Below are positions 29,724-32,339 of a stretch of 64,000 bases of DNA, piece by piece. The stretch is from positions 1-64,000 of the forward strand of contig DASRES010000035.1 of NCBI GenBank assembly GCA_035651955.1. The letters run 5' to 3'. How positions within the stretch are numbered: position 1 is the stretch's first letter; each line of letters starts with the position of its first letter. This DNA is from Acidimicrobiia bacterium (GTDB lineage: Bacteria; Actinomycetota; Acidimicrobiia; IMCC26256; JAMXLJ01). A program made the translations under genes and the position numbers. The notes beneath the pieces are model-generated. The model made no database searches. It was not told the DNA's origin and saw nothing but the letters and a program-made list of their open reading frames with translations.

Positions 29724-31598
29724 CTAGAGCGTGAGCGTGACCGTCGTGCCCGCCGGGACGGGCGTGTTCGCCGGGATGCTCTGCGTCTTCACAGGCTTGC
29801 CGGGCTTGTACCCGCGCACGTCCGCGACGAGTCCCTTCGACTGCAGCAGCGCGGCGGCCGCCTCGACGGGCTGACCGACGAGCGGAGGCACGGGCACGAG
29901 TTGCGGTCCCTTGCTGACGATCACGGTGACCGTCGAGTCGCGTGGGACCTGCGTGCCGGCCGGCGGGTTGGTGCCGATCACCTGGCCCGCGGGAACCGCG
30001 TTGCTGAAGTCGCTGCCCTGGACGGGCTTGAGGTGCTGCGCGCTGATCGCGGCCGCCGCCTGTGCGTAGGTGCCGCTCACCGCGGGCACCGTTCGGAGCG
30101 CGGGCCCGTTGCTCACGACCAGGTCGATCTTCGAGCCCGGCGCGACGGCCTGTCCGGCCGGCGGCTGCGTGGAGATCACCGCGCCCTTCGGGATGTTCTC
30201 GTCGTTCTGCTGCGTGATCGCGCCCGGCACGAACCCCGCCTTCGTCAGGGTGCTCTGCGCGTCGGCGAGCGGGACGTTCGCCACCTGCGGGACCGGGATC
30301 GGCGGTGGGCCCTCGGACACGACGAGGTGGACGCGCCCACCGCGTGAGATCCACGTGCCGGCCGCGGGCGATTGGTCGATCACCGTGCCGGCAGGATCGT
30401 CCGAACGCGCCGACGTCGTCGTGAGGCTGACGCCCGCGCTCGACGCGCGCAGCGCGGCATCGGTGCGGCTCATGCCGGTCAGGTTCGGCACCGCGATCCG
30501 TCCGCCGCCCGGGCTCGCGCTCGCGACCGCGTACCCCGCGACCACGAGTGCGAGCGCGACGAGGAACCCGACGACGAGCGGCGCGAGCACCGCGGCGCGG
30601 TCGCGGCGGGGAGGGATCGAGCGCGGCGCGGGCCCGGCCTGCAGCGCGACGGTGTCCTCCGACGCGTCCTGGTCGAACGGCACGGGTGCCGCGACCCCGA
30701 CCTGCGTCGGGTTCGGGTCCTCGCCCACCTCGTGGATGCCTGCGAGCGCGAGCGGACCGGGCGGTGGGAGCGCACCAGCCGCGTCGGCGAGCGCGGAGCG
30801 CATCGTCGCGGCGTCGGGATAGCGGTCGTCGGGGTCGCGCTGGCCCGCGCGCTCGACGACGGCCGCGAGCGGACCGAGCTCGGGTGGCGCGGTGATGCTC
30901 GCCTGCGTGCGGGCGACCAGCGTGCCGATCGTCGTGTCCGCGACGAAGGGCACCTTCCCGGTCACGGACTCGACGAGCACGAGCGCGAGCGCGTACAGGT
31001 CCGCGCGCGCGTCGAGCGGTGCGCCCGTCGCCTGCTCCGGCGACGCGTAGCGCGCCGTACCCAGCACCGTGCCCGCCGGTTCGGTCCAGCTCGCCTCGGC
31101 GAGCGCGCGCGCGAGCCCGAAGTCCGAGACGCGCACGATGCCGTGCTCATCGAAGAGCAGGTTCGCGGGCTTGACGTCGCGGTGGACGAGCCCACGTGTG
31201 TGCGCGTAGTCGAGCGCGCCCGCGACCTGCCGGCCGAGGTGGGCGGCCTGCGCGGGCGTCAGCCGGTGGTCGCGGTCGAGCATGCCGCGCAGGCTGCCGC
31301 CCTCGAGCAGCTCGAGCACCATGAACGGCAGCTCGTCCTCGCCCCAGTCGTAGACGGCCATCACGTTCGGGTGGTGCAACGACGCCGCGAGACGGGCCTC
31401 GGCGCGGAACCGGCGGAGGAAGCCACTGTCGTCGGCGAGGCCCGCGTGCAGGACCTTCACCGCGACGCGCCGACGCAGGCGGACGTCGTCGGCGACGTAC
31501 ACGCGCCCGCTCGCGCCCGCGCCGATCGGCGCGAGGAGGCGGTAGCGCCCGGCGAGCACACGGCCGACGAGGTCGCTGACGCCACTCGTGGGCGGCAT
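29724..31598 (-). CDS. PknB-like Ser/Thr protein kinase with PASTA domains
   Basis: 624 residues. The cytosolic kinase domain (about 18-275) has the Gly-rich loop IGAGASGRVY, Lys in VAVKVLH, catalytic loop HRDVKPAN, DFGLAR and APE-type YASPEQATG. A juxtamembrane linker and TM helix (VLAPLVVGFLVALALVVAGY, about 335-355) follow, then about four extracellular PASTA repeats (PNLTGM, PQVANV, PAVSG, PPLVGQ starts) that bind muropeptides or lipid II. No cell-division genes are adjacent, unlike the usual pknB locus. ATG at 31598 overlaps the TGA of a repeat-built upstream ORF (TGATG), so translation is probably coupled. A start further upstream would read the DNA repeats as protein and is unlikely. 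Confidence 0.93.
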   Translation of the reverse strand: MPPTSGVSDLVGRVLAGRYRLLAPIGAGASGRVYVADDVRLRRRVAVKVLHAGLADDSGFLRRFRAEARLAASLHHPNVMAVYDWGEDELPFMVLELLEGGSLRGMLDRDHRLTPAQAAHLGRQVAGALDYAHTRGLVHRDVKPANLLFDEHGIVRVSDFGLARALAEASWTEPAGTVLGTARYASPEQATGAPLDARADLYALALVLVESVTGKVPFVADTTIGTLVARTQASITAPPELGPLAAVVERAGQRDPDDRYPDAATMRSALADAAGALPPPGPLALAGIHEVGEDPNPTQVGVAAPVPFDQDASEDTVALQAGPAPRSIPPRRDRAAVLAPLVVGFLVALALVVAGYAVASASPGGGRIAVPNLTGMSRTDAALRASSAGVSLTTTSARSDDPAGTVIDQSPAAGTWISRGGRVHLVVSEGPPPIPVPQVANVPLADAQSTLTKAGFVPGAITQQNDENIPKGAVISTQPPAGQAVAPGSKIDLVVSNGPALRTVPAVSGTYAQAAAAISAQHLKPVQGSDFSNAVPAGQVIGTNPPAGTQVPRDSTVTVIVSKGPQLVPVPPLVGQPVEAAAALLQSKGLVADVRGYKPGKPVKTQSIPANTPVPAGTTVTLTL

Positions 31599-31723
31599 CA
31601 CATGACTCCCTCGGGCGTGGCCGTCCCGCGCGTCCGCGCACGACCACGCTTCGTCCGCGCTCGCACGGCTCCCTCGGGCGTGGCCGTCCCGCGCGTCCGC
31701 GCACGACCACGCTTCGTCCGCAT
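31598..31723 (-). CDS. Possible basic 41-residue uORF made of two repeats, coupled to the kinase
   Basis: ATG at 31723 to TGA at 31598; the final A of the TGA is the first base of the kinase ATG. The product contains RTKRGRARTRGTATPEG twice in tandem and is strongly basic. TACCGT ends 6 nt upstream of its ATG, the same leaderless pattern seen at other genes here. There is no acidic or hydrophobic part. The DNA repeat beneath it also gives GAGGGAG close to the kinase start. Expression is inferred, not proven. Confidence 0.45.
   Translation of the reverse strand: MRTKRGRARTRGTATPEGAVRARTKRGRARTRGTATPEGVM
31606..31721. repeat. Two 53-bp tandem direct repeats in the kinase leader
   Basis: Bases 31606-31658 are identical to 31669-31721 (53 bp, starting CTCCCTCGGGCGTGGCCGTC) with a 10-bp spacer, a 63-bp period divisible by three. 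The repeats lie between the kinase start and its predicted promoter. Confidence 0.95.
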
Positions 31724-31729
31724 GATCCA

Positions 31730-31735
31730 ACGGTA
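31730..31735 (-). promoter_or_regulatory. -10 element for the uORF-kinase transcript
   Basis: On the minus strand TACCGT ends 6 nt before the uORF ATG at 31723. An identical TACCGT serves the divergent gene at 31819-31824. Confidence 0.4.
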
Positions 31736-31818
31736 CCGGCCGGGGTCGCGCACCACGGGGCATCGCACCGCCCGACGAGCCGCGCGGTCGCGACCCGCCG
31801 CGCGACGACACGTGCGGG

Positions 31819-31824
31819 TACCGT
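31819..31824 (+). promoter_or_regulatory. -10 element of the divergent membrane-anchored protein
   Basis: TACCGT ends 8 nt before the ATG at 31833; a leaderless transcript is likely. Confidence 0.4.
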
Positions 31825-31832
31825 CGGGCTCG

Positions 31833-32339
31833 ATGACCGAACGTGTCGTGCGGCTCCCACCGCCGAACGCCAACGGCAACGGCCACCACGCGCCACCATC
31901 GACGGCGCGGCCGCTGTCGGTCCGCGTCCGACGTCACCCGTGGCGCTTCGCGATCGTCGCGGTGGGCCTGATCGCGGCGGCGAACCTGCTGTGGTTCGCG
32001 GGACACAGCGCGGACACGACCGACCGGACGAAGGTGTTGCCGAACGCGGTGTCGAGCGTGCTGCCCGCGAACGGCAGCCTCGTCAGCGTCCAGTCGCCCG
32101 TGAGCGTCGACCTGCGCGACGACCTGACCGGCGTGCTCGTCGTCGACGGCGTCGAGATCCCCGAGAACGAGCTGAGCCGCATCCCCGGGCTGGGCGAGCT
32201 CAGCTTCCGGCCCGGCAAGGGTCAGGTGTTCGAGCGCCTGGAGCCCGGCGTCCACATCGCGTCGGTCGTCTACTGGCCCCAGGCCAAGCCACGCGCCGAC
32301 GGCACGAGCACGTTCACGTGGAGCTTCCGCACGGGCTGA
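31833..32339 (+). CDS. Membrane-anchored protein with Ig-like extracytoplasmic domain
   Basis: 168 residues. A Pro/Asn/His-rich cytosolic start of about 37 residues is followed by one hydrophobic helix (FAIVAVGLIAAANLLWFAG, about 39-57) and an outside domain of about 105 residues with beta-strand character (GSLVSVQSPVSVDLRDDL, FRPGKGQVFERL, STFTWSFRTG), resembling bacterial Ig-like or CopC-like folds. No catalytic motif is visible. It is divergent from the PASTA kinase and could be an envelope sensor or substrate, but that is inference from position only. Its 3' end overlaps the convergent dehydrogenase gene by 26 bp. Confidence 0.7.
   Translation: MTERVVRLPPPNANGNGHHAPPSTARPLSVRVRRHPWRFAIVAVGLIAAANLLWFAGHSADTTDRTKVLPNAVSSVLPANGSLVSVQSPVSVDLRDDLTGVLVVDGVEIPENELSRIPGLGELSFRPGKGQVFERLEPGVHIASVVYWPQAKPRADGTSTFTWSFRTG

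Follow-up and report, generated by a model that had tools for sequence, protein, structure and literature searches.

A dispersed MIRU-like hairpin element as the probable source of tandem repeats between a leaderless-type promoter and a PASTA kinase gene in Acidimicrobiia

The repeats that precede a Ser/Thr kinase gene on the minus strand of the 64,000-nt window (the whole stretch of DNA analyzed, from the Acidimicrobiia genome G000) are very probably two tandem copies of a MIRU-like hairpin element, dispersed and of mobile type, that entered the region separating a leaderless promoter from the kinase start codon. The two exact 53-bp copies with a period of 63 described in the original prediction were confirmed (31669-31721 and 31606-31658, minus strand, n = 2), and the complete unit was found to be 59 nt long (Table 1). 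Translation bore out the predicted 41-codon ORF (31723-31598, minus strand), which reads MRTKRGRARTRGTATPEGAVRARTKRGRARTRGTATPEGVM* and whose TGA has one base in common with the kinase ATG at 31598 (TGATG). The hexamer TACCGT (31735-31730) ends 6 nt ahead of the ORF ATG at 31723, as had been noted, and Pfam matches to Pkinase and to four PASTA domains identified the downstream gene as the expected PASTA kinase. Its orthologue in the congeneric sister species, G001, is 70% identical. The divergent neighboring ORF of 168 aa (31833-32339, plus strand) had no Pfam match. TACCGT/TAGCGT-type motifs lie 6 to 10 nt before both starts that border the divergent gap (31730-31735, minus strand, and 31818-31835, plus strand) and before kinase orthologues (L098-L104, L131), and judging from these motifs leaderless transcription is probable at these genes. 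Scans for sigma-70 promoters and terminators found nothing.

Table 1. Features of the kinase locus, with positions in the window
Feature	Positions	Strand	Evidence
Element copy 1, promoter-proximal, 59 nt	31665..31723	-	cmsearch R1 81.5 bits, E 1.6e-13
Element copy 2, kinase-proximal, 59 nt	31602..31660	-	cmsearch R1 80.8 bits, E 2.2e-13
Copy 1 hairpin: outer stem of 10 bp, inner stem of 4 bp, GGG bulge, GGAC loop	31678..31712	-	covariation (34 copies, 94 copies); fold z -3.2
Copy 2 hairpin, structure as copy 1	31615..31649	-	covariation
4-nt spacer separating the element copies (period 63)	31661..31664	-	
GAGGGAG, SD-like 3' end of the element, kinase ATG 7 nt downstream	31606..31612	-	sequence; 3' end conserved across family
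41-codon ORF spanning both copies; stop overlaps kinase start (TGATG)	31598..31723	-	translation
TACCGT, putative leaderless-type -10; predicted +1 at or beside ORF ATG	31730..31735	-	motif recurs 7-10 nt before orthologous kinase starts
Host gene: Ser/Thr kinase, four PASTA domains	29724..31598	-	Pfam Pkinase + PASTA
Divergent neighbor ORF, 168 aa	31833..32339	+	TACCGT just before ATG

A search of G000 with the repeat sequence returned approximately 30 further places, and an iterated profile followed by a covariance model raised this to approximately 50 copies at approximately 45 loci, including arrays of two to three units. The kinase is thus one host among many, and for this reason a reading confined to the kinase leader fails. 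G001 carries approximately 40 copies. Across the rest of the order, matches were found in 9 of 56 other genomes, mostly of one genus (18 in G030, 11 in G048, 6 in G049 and 2 in G047, with others in G002, G005, G014, G053 and G055), and model R2 with strict filters gave no match in 395 further genomes sampled from across the Actinomycetota. There were no matches to Rfam 15 covariance models at E ≤ 1 and none in a plasmid search, and the open-access literature yielded no account of repeats of this type from Acidimicrobiia. Related elements with a tandem duplication within the hairpin (GGCGGAGCCAT twice) occur in G055 and G053 (L154:465-530, L155:1560-1625). Contigs C19 and C79 terminate inside element arrays with matching spacers (L015:1-111, L016:3056-3152) and are probably adjacent, split by the repeat.

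The consensus, GTGCGGACGAA-GCCGGGCCGT-GCGC-GGA(N)-GCGC-GGG-ACGGCCCGGC-CCGAGGGAGCCAT, describes a hairpin between constant single-stranded flanks, with an outer stem of 10 bp, an inner stem of 4 bp, a bulge of GGG and a loop of GGA(N). In an alignment of 34 copies that was not fitted to the structure, 98.1% of pair cells can pair and both sides have changed in 9 of the 14 pairs. An alignment of 94 copies, which was fitted to the structure, contains 187 double-changed cells against 62 expected and has a covariation score of 0.414, compared with 0.110 for shuffled and 0.02 to 0.05 for slid controls. The hairpin folds well below shuffled sequences (z scores of -4.7, -4.5 and -3.2), the consensus of a distant subfamily reaching only -1.4. 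Folding of the whole 145-nt kinase leader gave no significant z score because the region is very GC-rich, so that covariation, rather than the fold of the whole leader, is the informative test. The strong covariation of the stems shows that conservation acts on a nucleic-acid fold and not on a peptide. The original prediction had proposed comparing repeat copies for their reading frame; units of 57, 58 and 59 nt and array periods of 60 to 67 shift and break the frame, and the peptide is therefore not conserved. An in-frame stop is absent from 93 of the 94 copies, which is no evidence of coding since the copies have so few T and A.

The arrays are placed with a clear preference relative to genes. 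In G000 and G001 together, 60 of 70 arrays lie outside called genes; in co-directional gaps, sense outnumber antisense copies by 32 to 9 in these two genomes and by 15 to 2 in the others, and leader positions outnumber trailer positions by 30 to 3. Where the downstream gene is on the same strand, the 3' end of the array falls within -14 to +10 nt of the start codon in 27 of 51 cases, with gene starts taken from a simple codon-usage caller whose single starts may be off, and GAGGGAG is thus positioned as a ribosome-binding site. Some copies sit inside operons, 0 to 20 nt after a stop codon, with no promoter between the genes. The hosts are unrelated and include genes for S18 (rpsR), L20 (rplT), RNase PH (rph), TatA, bd oxidase, kinases, acyl-CoA dehydrogenase and others, as well as gyrA, which was assigned by eye and by synteny with a gyrB-like upstream sequence rather than by Pfam. 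This gyrA (L026:3134-6100) appears to carry an intein, based on an intein-like stretch, CVTGDTLVRVEG, seen by eye directly after the active-site region. NTGA is weakly enriched where host genes start (p = 0.035).

Comparison between species points to mobility. The nearest neighbor of 84 of 88 copies is in the same genome, and the element has thus been amplified separately in each lineage. The genes flanking element loci show orthologue-level identity across species in a single case, that of a histidine phosphatase (L037 in G000, L065 in G001), the sole place with a copy in both species, which may represent one old insertion or two. The orthologous kinase leader of G001 is without the element, and no significant match was found at the kinase loci of 52 relatives; a weak match (L098:2321, E 0.04), located 600 nt upstream of the kinase in the sister species, was not counted. 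These element-free orthologues retain a TACCGT/TAGCGT-type motif 7 to 10 nt ahead of the start. All 8 further orthologous leaders compared directly are likewise empty in G001, including those of gyrA, rph, rplT and rpsR, and a gcvT-like gene that reads GTGACCACG in G001 reads GTGAGCAC-element-ATGAGCACC in G000. In a variable-length test, flanking direct repeats with a score of at least 6 were detected at 9 loci against 0.85 expected and a maximum of 4 in 300 shuffles, while target duplication gave a weak signal in tests based on a fixed register or on the longest common substring. Recognizable flanking repeats are kept by a minority of copies only, with lengths of approximately 7 to 10 nt at some loci, approximately 30 nt or more at others and none at many; around the kinase pair no clear repeat is seen. 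Approximately 30 bp of the host coding start is repeated before the element in L064 (3038-3095) and L065 (3041-3098). At these two loci, the first four to six codons past the element ATG are strongly unlike the old copy.

At 15 copies the host start codon itself is duplicated, with a start-to-start spacing of 65 nt in 12, 62 nt in two and 63 nt in one. The spacing is thus 2 modulo 3, giving a -4 overlap, in 14 of the 15, a count that does not amount to 15 independent trials since the copies are related. The ORFs that begin at the old start with spacings of 65 or 62 nt are open and typically 22 codons long, with a terminal TGA overlapping the new ATG. The -4 pattern is present in G000, G001 and G030 (L096, of a 54-nt subfamily). 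At L070 and L065 the element is read in other frames and the overlap is unchanged, suggesting that selection acts on coupling and not on the peptide. The kinase pair is a variant, with an overlap of -1 instead of -4 and with both copies fused into one ORF by the period of 63. Coupling between a short ORF and the gene start that follows, proposed originally for the kinase, is therefore supported for the family as a whole and not as a feature specific to this gene.

We suggest that the element inserts at start codons or immediately behind them, often at NTGA, and that duplication of the target would leave the host with an intact start beside the SD of the element. The old start would then open an ORF of approximately 22 codons whose stop overlaps the new start, and ribosomes could be passed on via termination-reinitiation or land directly on GAGGGAG. 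Either route would allow host expression to survive the insertion, and the best reading is that the element is tolerated because it allows translation to continue. For the kinase, the ancestral gene would have been leaderless, starting just after TACCGT, and the pair would have inserted between this -10 and the start. The kinase mRNA would now begin at or near the ORF ATG at 31723, with a leader of approximately 126 nt that contains a leaderless-initiated 41-codon ORF and an SD, and the kinase may be translated through reinitiation at TGATG, from GAGGGAG 7 nt upstream, or both. We conjecture that the hairpin, as RNA or as single-stranded DNA, is the recognition target of the mobilizing machinery.

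Could the element instead be a cis-regulatory RNA, through which a translational regulator such as CsrA binds the GGA-rich hairpin and the SD and controls all hosts jointly? GGA occurs in the loop, the bulge, the 5' flank and the SD, much as in CsrA-bound leaders, stem covariation fits such an RNA, and csrA was found in both copy-rich genomes, G000 and G001. However, the hosts share no common function, element positions differ between species, G030 and G048 have the element in the same position yet no csrA, and no Rfam family matched, so we consider a shared regulon improbable. The csrA genes lie at G000:C55:30565-30717 (L192) and G001:C24:11565-11717 (L193); csrA is unusual for Actinomycetota.

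The two readings of the original prediction fare less well. A leader in which translation of the basic peptide controls the kinase would agree with the open 41-codon frame, the TGATG overlap and the leaderless-type -10 immediately before the ATG, but it is very unlikely, given that the element is dispersed genome-wide before unrelated genes, gave no significant match near the kinases of the 52 relatives, varies in unit length and period so as to alter the frame, and keeps its -4 overlap in other frames at L065 and L070. That the repeats are tandem operators through which a repressor controls the kinase, as two identical copies beside a promoter might suggest, is extremely unlikely: the copies lie downstream of the -10, others occur in operons with no intergenic promoter, and the covariation is that of pairing within a single strand, the bulge and loop being constant, so that the hairpin and not a duplex site is conserved. 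Mobilization by a RAYT/Y1 transposase is a further alternative, since, like REP and BIME sequences, the element is a short, dispersed, imperfect palindrome that forms a hairpin, has no coding capacity, occurs in intergenic arrays and is amplified per lineage. Yet Y1_Tnp (PF01797) gave no match in any of 10 element-bearing genomes, whereas the positive controls matched, and the copies lie in sense orientation before gene starts rather than after stops at 3' ends; we regard a REP-type origin as highly improbable.

The MIRU-like reading is preferred, and the likeness can be stated from published descriptions, not from sequence alignment. MIRUs are units of 46 to 101 bp at approximately 41 loci, partly in tandem (PMC3914561); they are seemingly mobile, insert at start codons and contain an internal ORF coupled to the host gene at a -4 spacing (PMC12548453). 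The Acidimicrobiia element is 57 to 59 nt long, with approximately 50 copies at approximately 45 loci in arrays of two to three; it duplicates start codons (15 copies), ends near them (27 of 51 arrays), has empty sites and, from sequence only, couples its ORF at -4 in 14 of the 15 start-duplicating copies, the kinase pair being at -1. In contrast to MIRUs, which are not known to have dyad symmetry, its core is a strongly covarying bulged hairpin; it also has a 3'-terminal SD, varies in the frame used among copies and belongs to a different class of Actinomycetota. MITEs are likewise small and dispersed, lack coding capacity and are bordered by direct repeats, but here the ends, GTGCGGAC and GAGCCAT, do not match as terminal inverted repeats and the inverted repeat is internal. 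The length of the duplication (approximately 7 to more than 30 nt) varies, unlike that made by a standard transposase.

MIRUs serve tuberculosis typing worldwide, and there is little understanding of their route of spread or of their preference for start codons. Another, apparently independent family that shares the logic of start codon and -4 overlap would make the insertion mechanism comparable and testable, aided by the covarying hairpin, the empty sites in a sister species and the long start-region duplications. We hold with about even confidence that an unrelated, hairpin-based repeat family of Acidimicrobiia has converged on the MIRU strategy, in which start codons are duplicated, an SD and a frame-correct coupling ORF are left behind, the leaders of essential genes are colonized and leaderless genes are made SD-led. 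If this is true, colonizable leaders would include those of gyrA, rpsR, rplT and the PASTA kinase, and one insertion could convert a leaderless gene to an SD-led gene.
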